Source: a virus. Taken from it: a stretch of 21,525 nucleotides of DNA. This document shows, piece after piece, positions 2,323-19,796 of this stretch. The stretch is taken from positions 1 to 21,525 of IMG/VR virus record IMGVR_UViG_3300044621_001380; one strand, 5' to 3'. Within the stretch, counting starts at the first letter, position 1, and the number at the start of each line of letters is the position of its first letter. Under the pieces are notes generated by a model. That model made no database searches. It saw only the letters and a program-made list of their open reading frames with translations, and had not been told where the DNA came from. A program made the position numbers and the translations under genes.

Positions 2323-2649
2323 CTACTTCTTGTGAAACTGTTCCCAGATCTGACTTGCGCCCCAGGCGAGAACTCCGCCACCGGCGACCAATGCGGCCCT
2401 CACTCCATTTGCCATTATCCGCAACTTCTCGAACTCGGTGATTTTTTCTTTGGCGTTCTGCAATTCTTCCTTGATCGCGTCGACGTCGTCAGCCATTCTC
2501 GTCATCGAGAACTGCATCTGCTGCATCTCCCGGGTCATTGACTCGACTTTCGAGTTAGTGGCCTCAAGGAGTTTAATGATTAACTGCCACTTCTCTTTGT
2601 CATCCATGAGATGGATTTGCTCCGGAATAATTGCGGCGAATTCTTGCAC
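2323..2649 (-). CDS. Coiled-coil protein with C-terminal membrane span (XhlA-like layout)
   Basis: I place the start at a GTG (2649) preceded by AGGAG with an 8-base spacer, giving 108 aa. The frame is open further upstream, but that extension would overlap the holin-like gene and is very basic and unlike a protein start. Residues ~19-76 form a long charged heptad-type coiled coil (KVESMTREMQQM, DDVDAIKEELQN). Residues ~82-98 are a hydrophobic segment (VRAALVAGGGVLAWG), followed by a short cationic tail HKK. This order, cytoplasmic coiled coil then terminal anchor, is that of XhlA-type holin-associated proteins. The gene lies 25 bases after a holin-like gene, which fits a lysis cluster. Family membership is inferred from layout, not clear sequence identity; a spanin-like or structural role is possible. 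Confidence 0.65.
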   Translation of the reverse strand: MQEFAAIIPEQIHLMDDKEKWQLIIKLLEATNSKVESMTREMQQMQFSMTRMADDVDAIKEELQNAKEKITEFEKLRIMANGVRAALVAGGGVLAWGASQIWEQFHKK

Positions 2650-2674
2650 GGTCTTTTCTCCTAGCTGAACGACC

Positions 2675-2911
2675 TCAGCGTTTCGCTCCGCCCGGCGGCG
2701 GCGGCTGGGCGGGAGCATTTGGTGACGGCGTAAAGATGCCATAGATAGCCAGAACCGACTGCGTGCTTCCAATTATAGTGATGATCCACTTGGCTGTGTG
2801 TTCATCCTGGATCAATCCTTGCCCGTTAGCGCTGTAGAATATCGCGCACAAAATGTGCAGGATTATCTGCAGGTAAGGAGGGATATTGATCTGATTTTTG
2901 GCTTTTGGCAT
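2675..2911 (-). CDS. Putative holin (two membrane spans)
   Basis: This 78-aa protein starts with the basic stretch MPKAKNQ and has two hydrophobic segments, about residues 12-29 (YLQIILHILCAIFYS) and 42-60 (WIITIIGSTQSVLAIYGIF), joined by a short polar loop. It ends in a Pro-rich, cationic tail (PPPPGGAKR). Small size, two spans and a charged C terminus are typical of class II holins, which permeabilise the inner membrane to time lysis. It lies near an L,D-transpeptidase gene and directly before a coiled-coil membrane-anchored protein. The putative ribosome site AAAGG is inside a perfect 6-bp hairpin immediately before the ATG, so translation may be controlled by RNA folding. The class is assigned from topology and neighbourhood only. 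Confidence 0.65.
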   Translation of the reverse strand: MPKAKNQINIPPYLQIILHILCAIFYSANGQGLIQDEHTAKWIITIIGSTQSVLAIYGIFTPSPNAPAQPPPPGGAKR

Positions 2912-2972: not shown

Positions 2973-3545
2973 TTACTTCTTCTTGGAGACGGCCGGTTCG
3001 TGGACCGGTGGTGGCGCGTCGTGGGTCGGCTCGGCCCCGGGAGTCGGTTCGACGAACGGGGCGGCGGCCGGCGGTGCAGGCGGAACGATGGAAGCAGCGA
3101 GAATCACCTTTGGCGCCGCATAGTTGCCGGCGTCGTTGATCGCGGTGAAGAGGCGCTGAAAACCGAAATCGCCGTACTTCCGGATGATATCGAGGCTGTC
3201 GCGGACTTCGAGCATCACGCCATTGGTGGTGCGGAACGGGTTGATATACTCGTCGCCGAAGTCGTCGTCAGTGGAGCGCTTGGGGCCCTGCTCGATCTTG
3301 AGCTGGAGATGGATCGGCTGGGATTCCGGAAACCCGTTGGCGACCAGCTCGTCGACCGGGATATACAGAGCGGTCGGGCCACCCTTGCTGCCGATAGCCA
3401 GAAGCGAGGATTCCGGCAGGCCCATGCCGCCGCGGAAGCGGGGAGCGTGCTTCTGCAGTTCGCCCATCAAAATTCGGCCCTCTTCGATGCTGGCCAGGTC
3501 GGCGGGCAACTTGCCTTCGTAGGTGGATTTGTAGAGATTCGACAT
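2973..3545 (-). CDS. Hypothetical protein with Pro-rich C-terminal tail
   Basis: This 190-aa protein has a good ribosome site (AAAGGA) inside the end of the transpeptidase gene; its ATG overlaps that gene's TGA by one base, so the two are likely translationally coupled. Residues 1-~150 look globular and mixed alpha/beta, with a Gly-rich stretch near 38-56. From ~153 the chain becomes a Pro/Ala linker (VPPAPPAAAPFVEPTPG) and ends in KKK. It has no signal peptide, membrane segment or recognisable catalytic motif. It sits between a peptidoglycan enzyme and a holin, so it could be part of the lysis group or a tail-associated protein. I do not recognise it. Confidence 0.8.
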   Translation of the reverse strand: MSNLYKSTYEGKLPADLASIEEGRILMGELQKHAPRFRGGMGLPESSLLAIGSKGGPTALYIPVDELVANGFPESQPIHLQLKIEQGPKRSTDDDFGDEYINPFRTTNGVMLEVRDSLDIIRKYGDFGFQRLFTAINDAGNYAAPKVILAASIVPPAPPAAAPFVEPTPGAEPTHDAPPPVHEPAVSKKK

Positions 3546-4006
3546 CAGGTTTCCTTTACCTCAAGCGTGGTTATCGGCCCGTGCTGCGCGATCAATTCGT
3601 GAAGCCGTGCCATGGTTTCATTGTGCACCCGAAGGCATCCGTACGTGGGACGAAGTTGCCCGGCGCCATTCAAAACTCCTGCATGCAGCCAGATGCCGAC
3701 GCGGCGGTGCTTGGCGTCGTGAGATGTCATCGCATTGCCATCAAGCGGCCACAACATGAAAACTGGATGAATCCCGTAGGTGGACGTGTCGGCCTGCGGC
3801 TTGACGGCGGCGGTCACCTTCCATTTCCCGGTCGGCGTGTCCCCGAACGGGAACAATTGGTCGCGAGTGGCGTTGCCAGACTTCTTCGCCATCGCGTTGT
3901 CGGCCTTGCCGAGAACCGGAAACTTCTGGACGAGCGCGCCGCTGCGCCAGATTTGCAGTTCGCCGGTCTGGCTGCGGTCTTTCGGAAGTATGGCGATGAG
4001 TTCCAT
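3545..4006 (-). CDS. L,D-transpeptidase (YkuD-fold) peptidoglycan enzyme
   Basis: This 153-aa protein shows the YkuD catalytic-domain signature: TPTGKWKV at 57-64, the IWLHAG block with His108, and PTYGCLRV with the presumed nucleophile Cys124. Host enzymes of this family use the active-site Cys to make 3-3 cross-links or to cleave L,D bonds in the peptide stems. The protein is only the catalytic domain: no signal peptide, no LysM or SH3 domain. It lies between the tail fibre gene and the holin-like gene, where phages usually keep an endolysin, and I see no lysozyme, amidase or peptidase elsewhere in the window. It may therefore be the lysis enzyme, acting as an L,D-carboxypeptidase or endopeptidase, or a virion-borne wall modifier. 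The family is clear; the direction of the reaction is not. No Shine-Dalgarno precedes the ATG, only five bases after the previous stop. Confidence 0.88.
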   Translation of the reverse strand: MELIAILPKDRSQTGELQIWRSGALVQKFPVLGKADNAMAKKSGNATRDQLFPFGDTPTGKWKVTAAVKPQADTSTYGIHPVFMLWPLDGNAMTSHDAKHRRVGIWLHAGVLNGAGQLRPTYGCLRVHNETMARLHELIAQHGPITTLEVKET

Positions 4007-4011
4007 GGTGG

Positions 4012-5070
4012 TTACGAGAGCGAGTGGCTGTGTTCTTCCGGCGTTCCGACGAGGGCGTTGTCGACCACGATGGCGGCGATGGCGGCGGCGATAGCGGCGT
4101 CGACTTCCGATTTCGAATAGACGTCGAGCCCGGTCCGAGTCGTTGCGGCGTCTTGCGATGACAGGGTGCCACCTGGCAGGGCAATCACGTATGTCGACGT
4201 CAGCAGCGGGTTCGTTACGGCGCCACTGACATCGAGAGCGCCAACCATGTTTGTGTCGCCAACGATCTTGACGGCTTCGGCCGCGCTGGGGGTGGATGCG
4301 CCAACCCCGAGAAAGTCAGATACCGATGCGTACCCATCGGTCGCCGGCGCGGCTCCGCCAACGCCGAGGCGAGGAGTGACAACGCTTTCCGGTTTGATAG
4401 TGGTGTCGCTCGATACGTTTTTGACAGTGAGGACAACTGCCGCCGCACTCACGGTGCCGATGATTTCGTTGTCGGCACCCTTCTTAACAGAGATAGTCCC
4501 GGTCGCCTCTTCGGATTGCAGGAGCGTGATAACGTCACCATCGACGGCATCTTTGAACGTGTTGATAAGGCGCGCCCAGAACGGGTTTGATTCCAGCGAG
4601 AACGAGTTGACGGCGCCGGCATCGACTTGCCCAAGGACAAGCACTATATCGTTTCCAAGCGAATCTTGCTCGGCGGTAATGGAAAAAAGAAGCTGCCCGT
4701 CGATATCAGTGATGAATAAATTGTCGGGGGAGATAGACATGCTCTCGCCGATATCGGGGTTACGGCTTTCGATATTCAGCGTCCCGTTGCCTGCCCGGCC
4801 AGACGCATCCAAGAGGATCACAAACCTGCCGTCGATCGACCTGATCTGCCCGACCGGGTCACCGTTTTTCAGGTTCCCAAGGATCTGCAGCACTGGAGTG
4901 GCGACAACATCTTTCCGAAGCCCGCTTGTCGAATCAGTGATGCGGAACCACCCCATGTCACGGTAGGTGTTGCTGAACGCAATGTCGATTTTGTCCAGGG
5001 CATTCGCAAGCAGGACGCCGAAGCGTTCGCGAGTTGCGAGGAGCTGCTGGCCGATGAGTTTGAGGCTCAT
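4012..5070 (-). CDS. Tail fibre-like protein
   Basis: I choose the ATG at 5070, which overlaps the preceding stop as ATGA; a TTG 15 bases upstream is less likely. The product is 352 aa. The N-terminal ~100 residues are probably the virion attachment part. Two related repeats (LGVGGAAPATDG and LGVGASTPSAAE) lie in the C-terminal half, followed by MVGALDVSGAV and YSKSEVDAAIAAA, elements common in trimeric phage fibres. The protein ends with a His-rich HSHSLS. The gene follows the tail protein with which it probably assembles. The role, host recognition or a tail appendage, is inferred from repeat style and gene order. There is no visible chaperone or enzymatic domain. Confidence 0.7.
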   Translation of the reverse strand: MSLKLIGQQLLATRERFGVLLANALDKIDIAFSNTYRDMGWFRITDSTSGLRKDVVATPVLQILGNLKNGDPVGQIRSIDGRFVILLDASGRAGNGTLNIESRNPDIGESMSISPDNLFITDIDGQLLFSITAEQDSLGNDIVLVLGQVDAGAVNSFSLESNPFWARLINTFKDAVDGDVITLLQSEEATGTISVKKGADNEIIGTVSAAAVVLTVKNVSSDTTIKPESVVTPRLGVGGAAPATDGYASVSDFLGVGASTPSAAEAVKIVGDTNMVGALDVSGAVTNPLLTSTYVIALPGGTLSSQDAATTRTGLDVYSKSEVDAAIAAAIAAIVVDNALVGTPEEHSHSLS

Positions 5071-7490: not shown

Positions 7491-8414
7491 CTACCAGACC
7501 TCGGCCCAAAACAAATCCCCGACTTGCGGGATGTAGCCAGGAGCCATCGTAATTGTCGCACCAGAAAGCGTGTACGCGGTACCGGACAGCAGTGTCACTC
7601 CATTCAGGTAAAGCGTCATATGGAGAGGCGCCGATGCCAATGTGAATGTGTCGTTCGTCCCGTCAATTGTTCCGGTCGGCACGACGGTATTTGGTGCCCC
7701 CACGGAGCCTCCTTCGGAAGTTATCAGCCCTGGAACAAATGGCAGCATTGCCAAGTTCTGAGCGTGATAAATCGGCATCTGTAATTGAGAGGACTGCTCA
7801 CCGGTGACAGCCGCCTGAATGAGCCGGAAGATGAACCCGCCGTTGTTGTCCAGCCTATCGCCACGAGCCTGCCGGTCGTAGTCGCGGGCCAGGTCCTTGT
7901 TGCCAGCGGTGAAGCCGGCGATGGCCGCCACTCGGTAGGCCAGGAAATTCTTGCACCCGTCGATCCCGCATGAACCGGTCGTCGGCGCAGCACCGGAATC
8001 GTAGTACCGGATCCGGAGTTGGACAGCGCCAGTCGCACCGATGAAGTTCCAGGTGTCGTTCGACCACTCGTAATTGACTAATAGTTGAACGGCTTGGCGC
8101 TGGGGGAGAGCGGTGCAAGCAGTCACCAGGGTGTAAATCCCTGTGCTCCCATAAATCCGCTCCTCCATCGAGTAGAGCTCGCCGAAGTTCGACACCCCAA
8201 TCGCTGCCGGGGTTAAAGAAGTGGTGTTGGCCGCCAACGGGTAGATGACCGTGCGGAGTTGCTTGGTGAGGTGGTTGCGGGCCATCTCCTCAGTCAACTC
8301 CTCGTACGCCATCTCAAACGACGGCTGCAGTACCGCCGCGGTGAACTTACGTGGAGTTCGTTCACCAAGGAGGCTCGCAGCCAGCGCTACCACTTCTTCT
8401 ACGGTTGGGATCAT
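7491..8414 (-). CDS. Head-tail adaptor or neck-like protein
   Basis: This 307-aa protein has an N-terminal helical part (MIPTVEEVVALAASLLGE, then EMAYEELTEEMARNH) similar in style to podoviral head-tail joining proteins that bind under the portal. The C-terminal 62 residues (246-307) form a separate module, PTGTIDGTNDTFTL, LYLNGV, Y-TLSGATITM and GDLFWAEVW, that recurs at the ends of many phage structural proteins as a small beta-sandwich appendage. Two Cys (GSCGIDGCKNF) lie mid-protein. It follows the capsid genes and precedes the tail gene, consistent with a connector. I judge the C-terminal module well supported and the adaptor role likely but unproven. Only three bases separate it from the previous stop and no clear Shine-Dalgarno is visible. 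Confidence 0.65.
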   Translation of the reverse strand: MIPTVEEVVALAASLLGERTPRKFTAAVLQPSFEMAYEELTEEMARNHLTKQLRTVIYPLAANTTSLTPAAIGVSNFGELYSMEERIYGSTGIYTLVTACTALPQRQAVQLLVNYEWSNDTWNFIGATGAVQLRIRYYDSGAAPTTGSCGIDGCKNFLAYRVAAIAGFTAGNKDLARDYDRQARGDRLDNNGGFIFRLIQAAVTGEQSSQLQMPIYHAQNLAMLPFVPGLITSEGGSVGAPNTVVPTGTIDGTNDTFTLASAPLHMTLYLNGVTLLSGTAYTLSGATITMAPGYIPQVGDLFWAEVW

Positions 8415-8417
8415 GGA

Positions 8418-9158
8418 TTAAGCCCGAACGGGAGTTTGCTTGGGCGCTACGGCCTTGCCAATGGCTGCCGGGTCAATACCCTCGATCTGGACATCCACCG
8501 GCTTCGAAGACGGCTTGAGAGCGGAAATCTGATGCTGCTGTGTCGCTGCCTCGACCAAGCGATTGGTCTTCGCGATCTGGGCGGCGTAGGCCTCGGCGTT
8601 GACGACCTCTTTGCACTCGGGACATTTGATGGCGTGCGACACGATGTACTTGCTGCAGTACGGGCATTCCATGCGCGCGTCCCGCTTGAGGTCATGATTC
8701 TGCCAGGACTCGCCGACAACTCGCAGGTACTCGGCCGCGCGGAAGTGGCGGGCGCCGATCGCGCCGGTCAACTGCTTGGCCTCCAAGTACCGCGCCTCGA
8801 TGATGAGGTTCCGGCAGAGCTTATCCTGTTCGTCTTTGCACTCCTGGTACTGAGGATCTTCGAAGATCTGCTGTGCGGTCGGCGTTCCTTCCATCATGAA
8901 GACGCCGATACGACCATCGTTCCCGCAGGAGAAGCGCCGGTAGCTGGACACCAGATCCCGCGCCAACTCCTCAGCGGAAACCAGCATGTTCATGTACTGG
9001 TCGGCGCCGGCGTAGTCGCGTTGGGTGGCGTCGACAACCTGCAAAGTGGAGAATCCGCCGGGAGTGGCCGGCGGCACGGTGAACACCTTGACCGGCGATA
9101 ACATTGGCCGACTCTCCTGGAGTTCAAGCGGAAAGATCGAAACGATCGTGAAAATCAT
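8418..9158 (-). CDS. Zinc-ribbon protein in the head module
   Basis: This 246-aa protein carries a zinc ribbon, CPYC at 165-168 and CPEC at 179-182, 10 residues between the pairs. The N-terminal ~160 residues appear alpha/beta with a helical YMNMLVSAEELARDL segment. The C-terminal ~55 residues are helical, then Pro/Lys-rich. The ATG at 9158 overlaps the preceding stop as ATGA and has AGGAG six bases upstream; a second ATG at 9104 (Met19) also has AGGAG, so the shorter form is possible and would drop a hydrophobic MIFTIVSIFPLEL start. Placed between capsid and adaptor genes, it may be a head completion or capsid-associated protein. Zinc binding is inferred from the Cys pattern; the family is not recognised. 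Confidence 0.75.
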   Translation of the reverse strand: MIFTIVSIFPLELQESRPMLSPVKVFTVPPATPGGFSTLQVVDATQRDYAGADQYMNMLVSAEELARDLVSSYRRFSCGNDGRIGVFMMEGTPTAQQIFEDPQYQECKDEQDKLCRNLIIEARYLEAKQLTGAIGARHFRAAEYLRVVGESWQNHDLKRDARMECPYCSKYIVSHAIKCPECKEVVNAEAYAAQIAKTNRLVEAATQQHQISALKPSSKPVDVQIEGIDPAAIGKAVAPKQTPVRA

Positions 9159-9799: not shown

Positions 9800-11050
9800 T
9801 TAGTAGGACGGCAGCGTCAGCCCGCTGAGGTAGCCGGCGTTGCCGGGGTTCTCGCAGACGTAGTTTTCCAGCAGGTACAGCGCGAACCAGGTCGTCGCGG
9901 CCGGGGAGCCGTCCGAACCGTAGATCGTGAAGAACCGGTTGCCGTTCTGCTCGTAGTAGCCGAGATCCTTCACCTGGCAGCGAGTCCAATCGCTGAAGTT
10001 GATGAGATCCATGCGGTCGTTGTCCTGGTGGGGATCCACCATGCCGGGACGGCCGCAGTAGTCAAAGGTCGGGGAATCCGGTTCTTCGTTCAGATCCGTA
10101 CCCAGACCCTTGCCGTTGCCGGTGAGATCGAAGCGGGACATGGTCAAAACCTGCGAGCGCAAGTTCGACTTCTGCTTTTCGGACGACACCCACATCATCC
10201 CCTTGACGATGCCCTTGCGCCGTTCGATGACCTGGTCGAGCAACTTCTGGCCGCTCATGAAGGTCGGGACGCCGGCCACCGGGACGGAGTTGGAAACGAC
10301 TTCGTAGGTGGTCGCGGCCGAGACGCCGAGGCGGGAACCGGAGGTGCTGGAGTTGTTGAAATACTTCAACCCCTGCGGGCCGGTCGGGCTGGAGCCGGTC
10401 ACGCCATCCCAGCAAAGGGTGTCGCCGCCGGCCGCCGAGGCGATCGTGGCGGAGAGGGTGACGGCTCGGTTGGCGTAATCGATCATATCGATCTGCACCG
10501 CGGTACCGGAGTTCAGCGCGGTGCCGCCGCTGTTGTACGGGATCACGTACTGGCCGAGGCGCAACTTGCGGCAGGCCGTCACGGTGTCCATGACGTACAC
10601 GGTTTTGGACGAAACCGTGGACTGGGAAATCGACGTCGCGATGATCGCGGTGCCGTCCGAGTGGAACGCCTGGTCGACGAAGTTCGCCATTTCCGGGATC
10701 GCGCTCTTGATCGCCTTTTTGAAGGCGTTCAGCCTCGAGATCGAGGCGTCGGCGGTGGCGTCGATCATCAACTGCGGCAGTTCGTACGCGATACGGAAGC
10801 TGTAAAACGTCTGGGTGAAGACGTTGCCCTTGCTCGCCGTGCCGCGGCCAATGGCGCCGCCGTTGCTGTTAAAGGTACCGGTGCGACCACCGTTCTGAGT
10901 GAGGAATGGCGCACGGAAATCGCGTTCGCTGATGCGGTCCAGCTTGCCGTTCTTCTTCAGCTTGTTCACGAGAACCGGAGCCGTTCCGAAGAATTCCGGG
11001 AACGACTTCGAGATTACTTCGGACTGCGCGTACAGGGCATCTGTTGCCAT
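9800..11050 (-). CDS. Major capsid protein
   Basis: This 416-aa protein directly follows the scaffold gene and has a good ribosome site (GGGAGA) before its ATG. Its N-terminal segment (SEVISKSFPEFFGTAPVLVNKLKKNGKLDRIS) and the following FRAPFLTQNGGRTGTFNSNGG stretch are like the N-arm and extended loop of podoviral HK97-fold capsid proteins. The central part has a helical spine region (ASISRLNAFKKAIKSAI) and beta-rich segments. Near residues 335-350 SPTFDYCGRPGMVDPHQD has capsid-like style. Length and place between scaffold and neck genes fit. It forms the icosahedral shell and is expected to be the most abundant protein. The fold is inferred; the identity is strongly supported by order. Confidence 0.85.
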   Translation of the reverse strand: MATDALYAQSEVISKSFPEFFGTAPVLVNKLKKNGKLDRISERDFRAPFLTQNGGRTGTFNSNGGAIGRGTASKGNVFTQTFYSFRIAYELPQLMIDATADASISRLNAFKKAIKSAIPEMANFVDQAFHSDGTAIIATSISQSTVSSKTVYVMDTVTACRKLRLGQYVIPYNSGGTALNSGTAVQIDMIDYANRAVTLSATIASAAGGDTLCWDGVTGSSPTGPQGLKYFNNSSTSGSRLGVSAATTYEVVSNSVPVAGVPTFMSGQKLLDQVIERRKGIVKGMMWVSSEKQKSNLRSQVLTMSRFDLTGNGKGLGTDLNEEPDSPTFDYCGRPGMVDPHQDNDRMDLINFSDWTRCQVKDLGYYEQNGNRFFTIYGSDGSPAATTWFALYLLENYVCENPGNAGYLSGLTLPSY

Positions 11051-12531: not shown

Positions 12532-12537
12532 TCAGAT
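12522..12537 (-). repeat. Perfect 16-bp palindrome over the portal stop codon
   Basis: ATCTGAAATTTCAGAT is identical on both strands and covers the portal TGA. Further copies of CTGAAAT (and its complement) lie on both sides within about 45 bases. A perfect palindrome of this length is the form expected of a dimeric repressor site, and as RNA it gives a 6-bp hairpin with an AAUU loop. Confidence 0.6.
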
Positions 12538-14799
12538 TTCAGTTGGCATCGCTCCAGGACCGAAATCATTGGGGCCTGGAGGTAGATCCGGCTCGCCCTG
12601 TGGAGGTGGCGCTGGGGCTTGCTCGCCACCTCCCTCTTCCGGCGGGAGCATGGGAGGCGCTGCCATCAAGTCCAACTGGCCGCCGAACAGTTTCACGTTC
12701 TCCAGGCCAACAGGGTTGGACTCGGCCATATCCTGCCCGACGTCTGACAAGACCCATGCACGGAAGACCTCGGACATGAACATCGCGTCTTTGAACTCGT
12801 ACGGGTCTGGCATCTGCGACGGCATCCGCGTGGGCATGCCGGTCATCGGATCGAACTCGTCGATCGGTTGTTCCTGCAGGAGTAACTGGATCTGCGCGAG
12901 GCACTTCTTGAACTGGGCGGCGCCCGGGGTGTAGAAGCCCTCGACGCCGAAGATGCGCTGCATCTGCTCAATGTTCATCGGGTGGCTAAACCCGAGCACG
13001 TTGGCAAGGTCAGGATTCTCCTGCGAAATGCCAGTGATGCGCTCCTGTTTCTCGGCCACCGTCACCGGTGCCGATTCTTCCGACTGCAGATCCCATCCGT
13101 CCAACTGTAGATTGTCGACGACCATCCGGCGCGTCGGCGTCATCGGGTTATTGCTGGGAACGAAGATTTCCCCGCTCTTGTACCGCGCCATTTCCTTGAT
13201 TCCGTTTTTCGTGGCGATACGCACGCAGGACTGGAGTTCATCGAATCCTGGCTGCAGTTGCGCGAGCGCCTGATTCTTCCGCTGGTTCTCGCCGCGGAAT
13301 GTATTGGCCGGTGTCCCGCCGCCGTAGACTGCCGGCTGCATGCCGTCGATCTCCCGGCTCATGTTGCGCTGCCACTCAATGAACGGCATCATTTGGTCGC
13401 TCATCTTGGCAACTGGCAACTGGCCGTACAGGGAGCCGATTGACTGGCCGCCTTGGATCTTCACGCGCACGAGCTCTCCGACGAGCGATTCAGCTTCCTT
13501 GATGTGCTGCGGACTCAGGAGCGTCGAGTCGACCATCGTTTTCGGGATCATGCGCAGCAAGGTTTCCTTGCCGAGATTGACCGCGTCGTTCAAGTCGTCC
13601 TGGATGGGAATAATGCCCTGGCAGAGCGGCGGGTCACTGATGTATGGGCCCGTGCCGGTCTTGCAGATGGACAGGTAATCGTCCATGCACTTGTGCTCCA
13701 TCCGGACCACTTTGCTCCCTACGATGGTCATGAGAACGCCTGTCGGGAACTGCTTTATCATCTCGTCGCGATCAGTTTTAGTGAGCGCGTGGTAAACATC
13801 CGGACGGACGTACTTCCGGCTCTCAAGGACGAGCCCTGAAGACTTGTCGAAGCACGGCACGCCGTTGGGAGACTCGACGGTTTCCTTCGCCAACTCGGCA
13901 TCCATCGGAGTGCCGCGGCCCATGTCGGAGTCCTGCGTAAAATCATCCGGCAGGTTGTACAGGGACTTCAGCATCCATTGCGGCTTCATCAGGTCGATCG
14001 TGACGAACTGGCAATCCTCAAGGATCTTAGCGCCAAAGGTGTGCCCGACGTCGAAGGTGGTCAGAATCTCCAACTCCACCTCGCCTTTCGGATACTTCTG
14101 CTGGCCAGCTTCGTACGGAACCTCGACCGTGATCGCTGGCTGGTAGGACTCCGGCCGCACGCTCGCCCCACACTGGTCGCACTGAAGTTGGTTGGCGACC
14201 GCTCCGCAGACATAGCACATCATCCCGGCCGGCCGAATCTCCACCTCCCGCATCTCCATCACCGGAAGGCTTTCCTCCCCATACTTCAGCCCGTTGGCGT
14301 TGTACCGGGTATGCAGAAATACGGCCGACGTCGACCACTGGTAGAACGCGATCTCGCGTTGCCGGCGCCGAATATCCCAGAGGCGGTGCAAGTGCATCGT
14401 CGCAGTCTGCGCGTCATCGGCCATGCGGAGTTGATTCGAAGCCCACGGGTCGAGCGGGACCGCCTTGATGTTCGGCGCGCGCTGCCCGACGATCGCCACG
14501 TACTTAACGCCATCGGCGGAGACAATGTTGTAGGTCGACGAGAACGTACGCTTCTTGCCGTCCCGCTCCTCGACCTGAACCGGCTTCCAGTCGTAGGATC
14601 TGCCGTCCGACGCCATCTGCGGGAACAGGTATTGCTTCCCCTGCATGTACAGGAGATTCCGCTTCGCGAGGGATATCTGCGCCTGTCGGTTTGGCTCCGC
14701 TGGCAATTCCAGTTCCTTGTAGACGACTTCCTTCAGCTTCTCGCCGATCGATTCAATTACCGCCTTCTCGTCGATTTCAGTGGCGCCAGTTGGTCCCAT
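12532..14799 (-). CDS. Portal protein (P22-size) with inserted zinc ribbon
   Basis: This 755-aa protein has features of large podoviral portals: helical N terminus with NRQAQISLAKRNLLYMQGKQY at 37-57, the W/F-rich FSSTYNIVSADGVKYVAIVGQ stretch, helical wing and stem segments, and a Pro/Gly-rich C-terminal tail. Twelve identical subunits would form the ring at one vertex through which TerL pumps DNA. Residues 195-210 hold a zinc ribbon, CYVC then CDQC, inside the wing region. Its length is close to P22 portal (about 725 aa). It lies between TerL-linked small genes and the scaffold. The start ATG overlaps closely with the previous stop (one base apart). Identity rests on length, order and general sequence character. 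Confidence 0.85.
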   Translation of the reverse strand: MGPTGATEIDEKAVIESIGEKLKEVVYKELELPAEPNRQAQISLAKRNLLYMQGKQYLFPQMASDGRSYDWKPVQVEERDGKKRTFSSTYNIVSADGVKYVAIVGQRAPNIKAVPLDPWASNQLRMADDAQTATMHLHRLWDIRRRQREIAFYQWSTSAVFLHTRYNANGLKYGEESLPVMEMREVEIRPAGMMCYVCGAVANQLQCDQCGASVRPESYQPAITVEVPYEAGQQKYPKGEVELEILTTFDVGHTFGAKILEDCQFVTIDLMKPQWMLKSLYNLPDDFTQDSDMGRGTPMDAELAKETVESPNGVPCFDKSSGLVLESRKYVRPDVYHALTKTDRDEMIKQFPTGVLMTIVGSKVVRMEHKCMDDYLSICKTGTGPYISDPPLCQGIIPIQDDLNDAVNLGKETLLRMIPKTMVDSTLLSPQHIKEAESLVGELVRVKIQGGQSIGSLYGQLPVAKMSDQMMPFIEWQRNMSREIDGMQPAVYGGGTPANTFRGENQRKNQALAQLQPGFDELQSCVRIATKNGIKEMARYKSGEIFVPSNNPMTPTRRMVVDNLQLDGWDLQSEESAPVTVAEKQERITGISQENPDLANVLGFSHPMNIEQMQRIFGVEGFYTPGAAQFKKCLAQIQLLLQEQPIDEFDPMTGMPTRMPSQMPDPYEFKDAMFMSEVFRAWVLSDVGQDMAESNPVGLENVKLFGGQLDLMAAPPMLPPEEGGGEQAPAPPPQGEPDLPPGPNDFGPGAMPTEI

Positions 14800-17445: not shown

Positions 17446-18897
17446 CTACTGCCGGTACCACTTCCCGTCGCTCGCCATCTCGAAGTTCACCCACTGGTTC
17501 GCCGTGCTGGTGTAGGCACCGCCGAAGTCTCCCGGGTTTGTCCCGCCGGTGTTGAACGTGGTGGCCGACTGCGTCCACACCTTGATGCGCTGGCTTGGCC
17601 AGCCGCCTGTCATCCGCGTGGCAGTGCCGCCGCCGGTCACCTGCAGAACGTCTGGAACGGTGACTGGAATGGCGATCGTGTTTGCCGAAACGGTGGTCGA
17701 CGGGATTGTGTCAACGCGCACATTCGGCGAAGTCAGGAAGTTTGAGTTGGTCCCGGCCTGGACGAAGAACGAACTTGATGCCGGCGTGTACATCACGTTG
17801 TTCACGAACTGAGAATTCGTGATATTGGAGTTGAAGTACCCCCACCAGTTGGTCGTTGATCCAAGAGAGGCGATGTCGCGGAATGTATTATCAACAACAG
17901 ATAACCCTGTGGCTGCCGTTAAAACAGCAACTCCACCGCCTCCGCCGCCGGATAAATCACAGGTGCCGATGGTATTACCGAATACCTTCACGCCCTTCGA
18001 GTTGATCAATTCAACGCAATGGCCTTGGTGGCTGGCTATATCGTTTCCAGACAGGATGAACCTGCCCTCGGTGGCATTACTCATGTCAATTTGTATTCCT
18101 GGATACGATGGGTAATAATTACCGACTAGCCACGAGTTTGATATTGAAACCTGCCCTTGCGGATTCGGATTAACGCTACCTATCGCTACCGAAGAGTACC
18201 GCACTCGATCGATTACCCCATTGTCGAATAAAACCCCAGAAAGCACTTCAGGCGGATTGATTCTAAGCCCGAATTCTCCCCGCAGCGCCGTGTTGCTTAT
18301 AGCTGTCCCGTCAGCGCTCTCAATATACATGCCGTTTTGAAGAACCTTCTGGAACATCGCCCGGCCACCAGTCGTGTAGGCGTTGGTGAAGGTGCTGCCC
18401 TGCAGGTCGATGGTGGTGGAGTTGATGACGGTTACCTTCCAACTGCCGTTTGCCTCTGTCGTTCCGCCAACACCAAACACGGTCACCCAGTCGTTCGTGG
18501 TGAAGACATTTGCGCTCGTCGTCAACCGAATCAGTCCTGATCCGTTATTAACGGCGCCTGAGATTGTCGGCATAGAGGTGATATATCCCTCTGAAACTGA
18601 AAACTCAGAATTGCTGACATACAACCCGCTGGATGCTCCACCAGCACTCGTAGATCCTCCAGTAACGTATACCCCGGCGAAAGGCTGCTCATTAGAAACT
18701 CTTGTTTGCAAAAAAGAAATTTCATCCAAGTGAATATCGTCAGCCGCATCTATATACACGCCAGTGATCTCGTCCCAAATCCTAATCCTGTTGAGGTATG
18801 CGCCACAACAGGTATGCCCTCTAATGCGGATCGCCGCTGAAGTAGACCTTCCGTTGAAGCGTATGTAAGGCAGATCCAGTTCCAACTGAGTCGACAA
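17446..18897 (-). CDS. Tailspike, C-terminal part (beta-helix), downstream of a frame change
   Basis: This open frame begins only at a TTG without any ribosome site, inside the 3' end of the preceding open frame, and continues its fold, so I read both as one gene. Residues ~10-110 and ~185-385 show the Asn/Gly/Ser-rich periodic strands of a right-handed parallel beta-helix (GVYIDAADDIHLDEISF, IQIDMSNATEGRFILSGNDI, VKVFGNTIG, LSVVDNTFRDIA), as in phage tailspikes and depolymerases. Residues 112-183 are an inserted module repeated from the first part. The last ~90 residues form a separate beta domain ending in WVNFEMASDGKWYRQ. Catalytic residues cannot be assigned. If the frame is restored the gene would give about 743 aa. 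Confidence 0.75.
   Translation of the reverse strand: MSTQLELDLPYIRFNGRSTSAAIRIRGHTCCGAYLNRIRIWDEITGVYIDAADDIHLDEISFLQTRVSNEQPFAGVYVTGGSTSAGGASSGLYVSNSEFSVSEGYITSMPTISGAVNNGSGLIRLTTSANVFTTNDWVTVFGVGGTTEANGSWKVTVINSTTIDLQGSTFTNAYTTGGRAMFQKVLQNGMYIESADGTAISNTALRGEFGLRINPPEVLSGVLFDNGVIDRVRYSSVAIGSVNPNPQGQVSISNSWLVGNYYPSYPGIQIDMSNATEGRFILSGNDIASHQGHCVELINSKGVKVFGNTIGTCDLSGGGGGGVAVLTAATGLSVVDNTFRDIASLGSTTNWWGYFNSNITNSQFVNNVMYTPASSSFFVQAGTNSNFLTSPNVRVDTIPSTTVSANTIAIPVTVPDVLQVTGGGTATRMTGGWPSQRIKVWTQSATTFNTGGTNPGDFGGAYTSTANQWVNFEMASDGKWYRQ
18349..18564 (-). repeat. Second copy of tailspike module (E1_FCCH-like)
   Basis: Residues 112-183 of the downstream frame (ISGAVNNGSGLIRLTT, FGVGGTTEANGSWKV, STTIDLQGSTFTNAYTTGG) match the copy at 19235-19447 almost position by position. 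The pattern resembles the FCCH-type beta module that is often annotated in phage tail proteins. It interrupts the beta-helix. Confidence 0.65.
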
Positions 18898-19678
18898 TAA
18901 TTATGTCGGCGGCATAATCGCTTGCCCGGCTCAACACCGTACTGAATATGCCAGCCCCAAAAATATCAGACGTGAAGTCGCTAGTTAACCACAGCGGACC
19001 ATGAACGATTATCGTCGGTTGGCTCATATACACCAAGCGGCGAGTCCCGGTTTGGGACCACAGCGCCTCCACAACGCCGCCAAAAGCTGGCGCTATTGAG
19101 TAGGTTCCGGAATGCGAGTTGCTAACCCACGCCTTGATCGTGCCGGATGAACCGAGCCCAGTACACGTCCCTCCACTCACGAAAATCGTCTCAGCCGTGC
19201 CAACTCCGCCGGAAAGGTATAGTGGGTGGATTAACTGCTTGGCGGTCCCTCCGCTCGTATATACGCCGGAAAAAGTGCTACCGATTAGGTCAAAAGTCGT
19301 TGATGTGACGCGAGTGATCGCCCAGTTTCCGTTCGCCGCCGTTACGCCTCCCACCCCAGATATCAAAACTCTTTGGCCGCTTCCTAGATTCAGGGCGGTT
19401 GTCGTGATACGGATTAGACCACTCCCGTTATTGGCCACGCCAGTGATCGTTAGGGACGGGCCTAAATTCGTCCCTTTCAACCCGAGCGGACATTTAGAGA
19501 ATGTGAACGTCTCCTCCGCGGCGCCTGCGAGCGTGGTGCTGAACGACACCGCCGGGAAGTTGAACGCCTCGGATGGGATGCCTGGCTGATTTTTCAAATC
19601 ACGCACGTAATCAGGCTTTTGAGAGAACAAGCACAGCGTTGCTGCCGCGATAATTGTGATCTGGTGGAGGAGTCGCAT
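18821..19678 (-). CDS. Tailspike, N-terminal part, upstream of a frame change
   Basis: I choose the ATG at 19678, with GAGG at a suitable distance; the frame also opens upstream from a TTG inside the terminator T run, which is not credible. The product is 285 aa. It begins MRLLHQITIIAAATLCLFSQ, which looks like a signal peptide and is unusual for a virion protein. A beta-rich module follows (copy 1 of the repeat), then WLTSDFTSDIFGAGIFSTVL, the typical entrance to a pectate-lyase-like beta-helix. The frame then stops at 18821, 77 bases after the next frame opens. The gene is first in the block after a terminator and directly upstream of TerL, an uncommon place for a tailspike. Confidence 0.75.
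   Translation of the reverse strand: MRLLHQITIIAAATLCLFSQKPDYVRDLKNQPGIPSEAFNFPAVSFSTTLAGAAEETFTFSKCPLGLKGTNLGPSLTITGVANNGSGLIRITTTALNLGSGQRVLISGVGGVTAANGNWAITRVTSTTFDLIGSTFSGVYTSGGTAKQLIHPLYLSGGVGTAETIFVSGGTCTGLGSSGTIKAWVSNSHSGTYSIAPAFGGVVEALWSQTGTRRLVYMSQPTIIVHGPLWLTSDFTSDIFGAGIFSTVLSRASDYAADIIIVDSVGTGSALHTLQRKVYFSGDPH
19235..19447 (-). repeat. First copy of tailspike module (E1_FCCH-like)
   Basis: This encodes ITGVANNGSGLIRITTT, ISGVGGVTAANGNWAITRV and STTFDLIGSTFSGVYTSGG. It is the same ~72-residue beta module found at 18349-18564. The NNGSGLIR and YTxGG ends are nearly identical, so the repeat arose by duplication or shared acquisition. Confidence 0.65.
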
Positions 19679-19796
19679 ATTCGCCTCAATCCTACCAAGT
19701 TTCGCTGCCACCAAAAAAATTGCCGCCTAACCGGTGAAGGCTGGCGGCCGAAGTGGCTTGCCCATCAAGGAGATTTCACTTCCGTGTCCAGTCAGA
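19679..19796 (-). other. 118-base spacer containing a terminator
   Basis: Between the 27-aa membrane peptide and the tailspike start, the spacer holds the terminator described separately and a short GAGG ribosome site. I find no clear -35/-10 pair in the 34 bases left after the T run, so the promoter for the structural block is either non-standard, phage-specific, or upstream with read-through. Confidence 0.5.
19713..19748 (-). terminator. Rho-independent terminator before the tailspike-terminase block
   Basis: On the message strand a GCCGCC / GGCGGC stem (19722-19748), extended by AGCC / GGTT with one bulged A and a TTCACC loop, is followed by AA and seven T. It lies in the 118-base spacer after the small-gene group, 34 bases before the tailspike ATG. 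It is the only hairpin in the window with a proper T run. It should separate the upstream small genes from the structural genes unless antitermination occurs. Confidence 0.75.

Follow-up and report, generated by a model that had tools for sequence, protein, structure and literature searches.

Does a YkuD-fold protein take the place of an endolysin in this tailed phage? The stretch of DNA analysed here (hereafter the window) is a complete IMG/VR record, a linear fragment of 21,525 bases, so absence of a gene from the window does not amount to absence from the phage. The terminase and major head protein genes mark it as a tailed phage, and the called genes lie on the minus strand (Table 1). Two further IMG/VR contigs (L002 and L003) encode a terminase identical to that of the window (100% at the protein level), indicating that the virus was present in more than one sample. 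Searches with the terminase and tail queries recovered only fragments of the same virus; portal, major capsid and tail proteins had no relatives in INPHARED, and a search for an extension at the left end of the record with a 461-aa protein returned no relative. Elsewhere in the window, two adjacent ORFs (17446-19714, minus strand) are apparently paralogues encoding tail or fibre proteins; each contains an E1_FCCH-like stretch that scores under the cut-off (about 1e-4). A 246-aa protein and the presumed portal of 755 aa (8418-9158 and 12532-14799, both minus strand) contain zinc-ribbon-like cysteine motifs with weak DZR matches.

Table 1. Window features relevant to phage type and to the proposed lysis cassette
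Feature	Position	Strand	Basis
Predicted coiled coil, 131 aa (start uncertain), candidate lysis accessory	2323..2718	-	Gene call
Candidate holin, 78 aa, two hydrophobic stretches	2675..2911	-	Hydropathy, layout
Conserved neighbour of the YkuD gene, 190 aa	2973..3545	-	Homologues in G164 and G167; overlaps the YkuD ORF by one base
Compact YkuD-fold protein, 153 aa, proposed endolysin	3545..4006	-	Pfam, AlphaFold2 model, Foldseek, relatives
Probable tail appendage protein, 352 aa, immediately upstream of the YkuD gene	4012..5070	-	Gene call; position and fibre-like C-terminus
Major head protein	9800..11050	-	phrog_14242 (1.6e-05)
Terminase large subunit (tailed-phage marker)	15606..17444	-	Pfam Terminase_6N (3e-08); phrog_979 (2.4e-37)

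The ORF of the proposed endolysin starts with ATG and gave the sole YkuD match in the record (PF03734, E 4.5e-06, 27.8 bits against a cut-off of 23.4). The YkuD histidine and cysteine, His108 and Cys124, lie at the places given in an earlier sequence-only reading of this DNA, and both are invariant in A2, an alignment of ten family members comprising the window protein and nine phage relatives. The motif HXX14-17(S/T)HGCh from the literature, which most YkuD members show but some lack, is not fully matched: the window protein reads T-Y-G-C, with tyrosine replacing the second histidine, and its His-Thr spacing is 12 residues. Csd6 likewise lacks the second histidine (T-K-G-C), so the T-Y-G-C variant is compatible with YkuD membership. 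Set against the YkuD and Tlde1 (PF10908) profiles, the two families named in the sequence-only reading, the protein matched the former over its cut-off and not the latter; among Pfam families YkuD alone was matched at E up to 1. PHROGs held no match to the window protein and NCBIfam none to A2. The protein carries no signal peptide.

The AlphaFold2 model computed from A2 (pLDDT 92.9, pTM 0.88) predicts a YkuD fold, and its best solved neighbours in Foldseek were Bd1075, Tlde1a, Csd6 and LdtMt2. The literature describes Bd1075, Tlde1a and Csd6 as L,D-carboxypeptidases and credits Tlde1a with additional transpeptidase activity (PMC8938487, PMC9638812, PMC6403190). A phmmer alignment to Csd6 (E 0.52) places window residues Tyr77 and Trp106 opposite positions 142 and 167 of the 4xzz chain. 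The catalytic residues of Csd6 are presumably His160 and Cys176, which implies a numbering offset of nine relative to that chain; by counting, Tyr77 and Trp106 would thus correspond to Csd6 Tyr133 and Trp158. These two residues belong to the D-Ala pocket of Csd6 (PMC10653827). Tyr77 is nearly invariant in A2; no more than about half of its members, the window's closer relatives included, have Trp106. The pairing, drawn from a weak alignment, may favour cleavage adjacent to D-Ala.

Relatives of the protein were sought in phage, plasmid and IMG/VR sequences. The ORF itself retrieved nothing from INPHARED phages by tblastn, even at E 10, or from viral contigs in single-sequence scans; the DNA pattern YGC[IL]RVHN and a scan with a three-sequence alignment were equally empty. 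Plasmid records contained full-length relatives in Rhizobium (E 6e-14) and Paenibacillus (E 6e-11), and alignment with these revealed the signature LRPTxGC[ILV]R. As a DNA pattern, this signature occurred in 35 IMG/VR stretches, and eleven loci among them matched the family strongly (E 1e-28 to 1e-36). The search with A2 returned 32 loci, partly on the same contigs, bringing the total to about 30 IMG/VR contigs with compact, signal-less relatives. The His and GC.R motifs are kept in 25 distinct full-length members (two of them plasmid-borne) and H-x-G in 24, and dN/dS values of about 0.10 in two close pairs indicate purifying selection on the gene in those pairs. Pfam YkuD matched the proteins of nine of eleven scored contigs at E 0.001 and exceeded its cut-off in three, so the family is easily missed.

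The Rhizobium relative is a stand-alone family member on pRlX1, beside very large hypothetical ORFs (L011:14995-15576), and that of Paenibacillus polymyxa is likewise stand-alone, on a plasmid with conjugation genes (L012:43751-44200, minus strand). Two genome matches (L004, L005) were set aside as ordinary LysM-YkuD chromosomal proteins. A chromosomal YkuD query also retrieved INPHARED matches, which looked host-like by their neighbour genes where these were inspected. The L,D-transpeptidase annotated in the INPHARED records MW462191.1 and MK416017.1 (L007, L008) is surrounded by host-type genes, and phage YkuD counts from such records may therefore be inflated.

The genes around the YkuD ORF of the window were then compared with those of the relatives. 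The gene layout agrees with the earlier claim of a holin-like gene one gene after YkuD, the 78-aa ORF lying beyond the conserved neighbour. The best 19-residue Kyte-Doolittle means of this ORF, about 1.55-1.59, are just below the usual transmembrane threshold, and it matched no holin family in Pfam or PHROGs; as a marginal call, it may be the holin of the window. The predicted coiled-coil protein matched coiled-coil families weakly, together with a hemolysin family (phrog_1193, E 0.006), and has a weak C-terminal hydrophobic stretch (hydropathy peak 1.32). Neither the probable tail appendage protein nor the conserved neighbour had a significant match in Pfam or PHROGs. The conserved neighbour is homologous by BLASTP to the product of the gene directly downstream of YkuD in contigs G164 (2.3e-20) and G167 (6.7e-20). 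In G164, a 42-kb contig of another phage type, the order is YkuD, conserved neighbour, a 108-aa protein and Phage_holin_4_1, so that this homology ties the window cassette to one with a recognised holin.

At least two Pfam holin families occur near YkuD among the relatives: GTA_holin_3TM in G174 (1.8e-10) and G173 (2.5e-11), and Phage_holin_4_1 in G164 (1.8e-24), G154 and G170. The gene order in G174 is GemA (5.9e-41), Mor (2.1e-06), YkuD, a protein with two transmembrane segments, GTA_holin_3TM, a small ORF, DUF2730 (8.6e-19), another small ORF and gp27 (2.7e-41), and G173 has the same layout. Phage Mu carries GemA, Mor, three small genes, C, the endolysin gp22, Rz, gp24, DUF2730, gp26 and gp27; in the Mu-like prophages YkuD thus occupies the slot between GemA/Mor and DUF2730/gp27, the position of the gp22 endolysin. 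The 48-kb contig G175, apparently a full-length Mu-like prophage with genes from regulator to tail, also has YkuD in the gp22 slot, followed by a 215-aa protein that matched no holin family. The YkuD proteins of the Mu-like contigs form one clade (support 100/99). Two further observations concern these neighbourhoods. A conserved protein of 108-111 aa with an LKK.GRG N-terminus precedes Phage_holin_4_1 in G154 (1196-1531) and G164 (8187-8513), the G164 copy having no Pfam match. In G170, the gene directly downstream of YkuD encodes a patatin-like phospholipase (1.2e-23; L110:3289-4161, minus strand), possibly a membrane-attacking partner in lysis.

Membership of the fold family, the conserved His and Cys, the lack of a signal peptide and the selection and gene position seen in relatives provide the basis for assigning a role. 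At the end of infection, the YkuD-fold protein probably serves to break down the host wall; for the phage of the window, this probable role rests on its relatives and on a fragmentary genome. More specifically, we consider it reasonably likely that the ORF encodes a holin-released cytoplasmic endolysin hydrolysing the mDAP-D-Ala bond. Synthesised without a signal peptide, the protein would accumulate in the cytoplasm and enter the periplasm once the neighbouring holin opened the inner membrane. In the periplasm, His108 would activate Cys124 for attack on the mDAP3-D-Ala4 bond at its mDAP carbonyl, and the acyl-enzyme would be resolved by water. Such cleavage would remove D-Ala from free tetrapeptides, and in 4-3 cross-linked dimers it would open the cross-link and cause the wall to fail.

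The mDAP-D-Ala bond is an L,D bond and is found in ordinary 4-3 cross-linked peptidoglycan, in the donor half of the cross-link, where its hydrolysis would open the link. Ordinary 4-3 cross-links would suffice, the host would not need any special L,D cross-linking, and the earlier hint of a host with accessible L,D-linked stems finds no support. Pure L,D-carboxypeptidase action would leave cross-links uncut, and YkuD enzymes can also form bonds; an enzyme trimming monomers only could not lyse the cell alone. We infer that the YkuD protein hydrolyses rather than transpeptidates and that it acts on cross-linked stems.

No lysozyme, amidase or endopeptidase was visible in the window to the sequence-only reading, and Pfam and PHROGs searches of the main ORFs together with six-frame searches, the latter for Phage_lysozyme, Amidase_2, Peptidase_M15_3 and Phage_lysozyme2, likewise found no other lytic domain there. 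The same four families were absent from 19 records, the window included. In G175, 43 scanned proteins yielded 22 Pfam families, none of them lytic, eleven large structural or transposition proteins having been left out, and no lytic Pfam family was present among the 53 proteins of G164. A GH108 search had no match in any control genome and was not counted as evidence of absence. SLT was found in one of 26 relatives' records, G158, whose SLT enzyme (L064, contig 24703-25131, minus strand) has an apparent signal peptide and lies two genes from YkuD; YkuD is therefore not always the sole wall enzyme. This co-occurrence and the incomplete record of the window speak for an auxiliary role, in which the main murein hydrolase lies outside the fragment and YkuD assists release by freeing proteins bound to the wall or by trimming stems. 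DpaA, a YkuD hydrolase that detaches Braun's lipoprotein in Escherichia coli, shows that such an enzyme can release an envelope protein (PMC10653827). However, DpaA is reported to lack the D-Ala pocket (PMC10653827) with which Tyr77 and Trp106 of the window align, and the long contigs G175 and G164 show no other lytic Pfam family among the proteins scanned and place YkuD in the lysis slot (G175) or next to a holin (G164); we regard the auxiliary role as unlikely, though the strongest of the alternatives.

The relatives' holins, the gp22 slot and G175 with no other lytic domain detected thus support the original proposal of a YkuD-fold enzyme in the endolysin's place, and the phage of the window would lack another endolysin, although a canonical one may be encoded beyond the fragment. 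A broader claim, that an unnamed family of stand-alone YkuD-fold endolysins serves unrelated environmental phages as their sole murein enzyme and cuts mDAP-D-Ala inside cross-links as an L,D-endopeptidase, is one we put forward only tentatively.

Gene position also bears on the remaining alternatives. YkuD follows tail genes in the window, G155 and G171, and some BFVD matches lie inside large tail proteins, as would suit a virion-associated enzyme that makes a local hole in the wall during DNA entry. This is improbable for a small stand-alone protein with holin neighbours in several lineages, the more so as the Mu-like relatives carry it in the lysis slot, apart from the tail block. Wall remodelling during infection, such as the superinfection blocking suggested earlier, would draw on the transpeptidation and D-amino-acid exchange of which YkuD enzymes are capable (PMC9638812), but the protein has no signal peptide for early periplasmic delivery and its gene is placed with a holin and late genes in a lysis cassette, leaving this reading less supported and slightly more improbable still. 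A delivered antibacterial toxin or phage-borne cargo, akin to Tlde1 or a polymorphic-toxin YkuD tail, is the least probable: Tlde1a is among the closest folds and a Persicobacter RHS-type protein has a YkuD-like domain at its C-terminus, with a small ORF behind its gene, but the YkuD protein of the window has no delivery domain, no immunity-like gene was identified and holin neighbours recur. The Persicobacter protein, of 3159 aa, is plasmid-borne (L013:1070-10549, plus strand) and its C-terminal domain is a weak family match; the small ORF (L013, 10542-11081) could be an immunity gene.

YkuD enzymes are mainly known as wall builders, trimmers or protein-attaching enzymes, and the class is a fairly surprising one for an endolysin, though with precedents; the activity is predicted. 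If unrelated phages do use such an endolysin recurrently, the known lysis enzymes would gain a cysteine-dependent class, a function could be assigned to a family missed by annotation libraries, and some phages seemingly without an endolysin would have one. Our limited search of the open-access literature found no paper on the compact family, and BFVD holds YkuD-like folds labelled endolysin or lysin. The strategy is uncommon, in agreement with the sequence-only reading. Compilations of phage lytic proteins list YkuD among the enzymatic domains in PhaLP (PMC8310338), a Yellowstone endolysin catalogue (PMC5017753) and gut endolysins (PMC13284279), but it is rare, with 10 such proteins in PhaLP (PMC8310338) and 3 in the Yellowstone catalogue (PMC5017753). 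The same compilations, and the LDT-like endolysin proposed for the Mu-like Vibrio phage Martha 12B12 (PMC9239132), show that the strategy has precedents.

The papers on PhaLP, Yellowstone and the gut give domain lists only. The family described here consists of compact proteins, most of which score under the Pfam cut-off, and neither PHROGs nor NCBIfam contains it. The Martha 12B12 endolysin, which from gene order we read as the DUF5675 protein VPCG_00031, resembles it as an LDT-like soluble protein in a Mu-like endolysin slot with a visible His and GC motif, but shows no significant profile similarity to the family (hhalign probability 8.8% as a single protein and 0.4% with a four-sequence alignment). 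Csd6 of Helicobacter pylori and Bd1075 of Bdellovibrio are YkuD-fold L,D-carboxypeptidases and, together with Tlde1a, the best fold matches; Csd6 can also be aligned in the regions of the active site and the D-Ala pocket. Both are, however, larger cell-shape enzymes with extra parts and 15-17% identity. Tlde1a, a type VI secretion effector, shares the fold (TMq 0.59) and is a wall-harming L,D-carboxypeptidase, but it is delivered and has an immunity gene, whereas the window lacks a Pfam Tlde1 match. The YkuD proteins of the Mu-like phages share their gene slot, between GemA/Mor and DUF2730, with the endolysin gp22 of Mu, but they differ from this SAR muramidase in fold and in being soluble.
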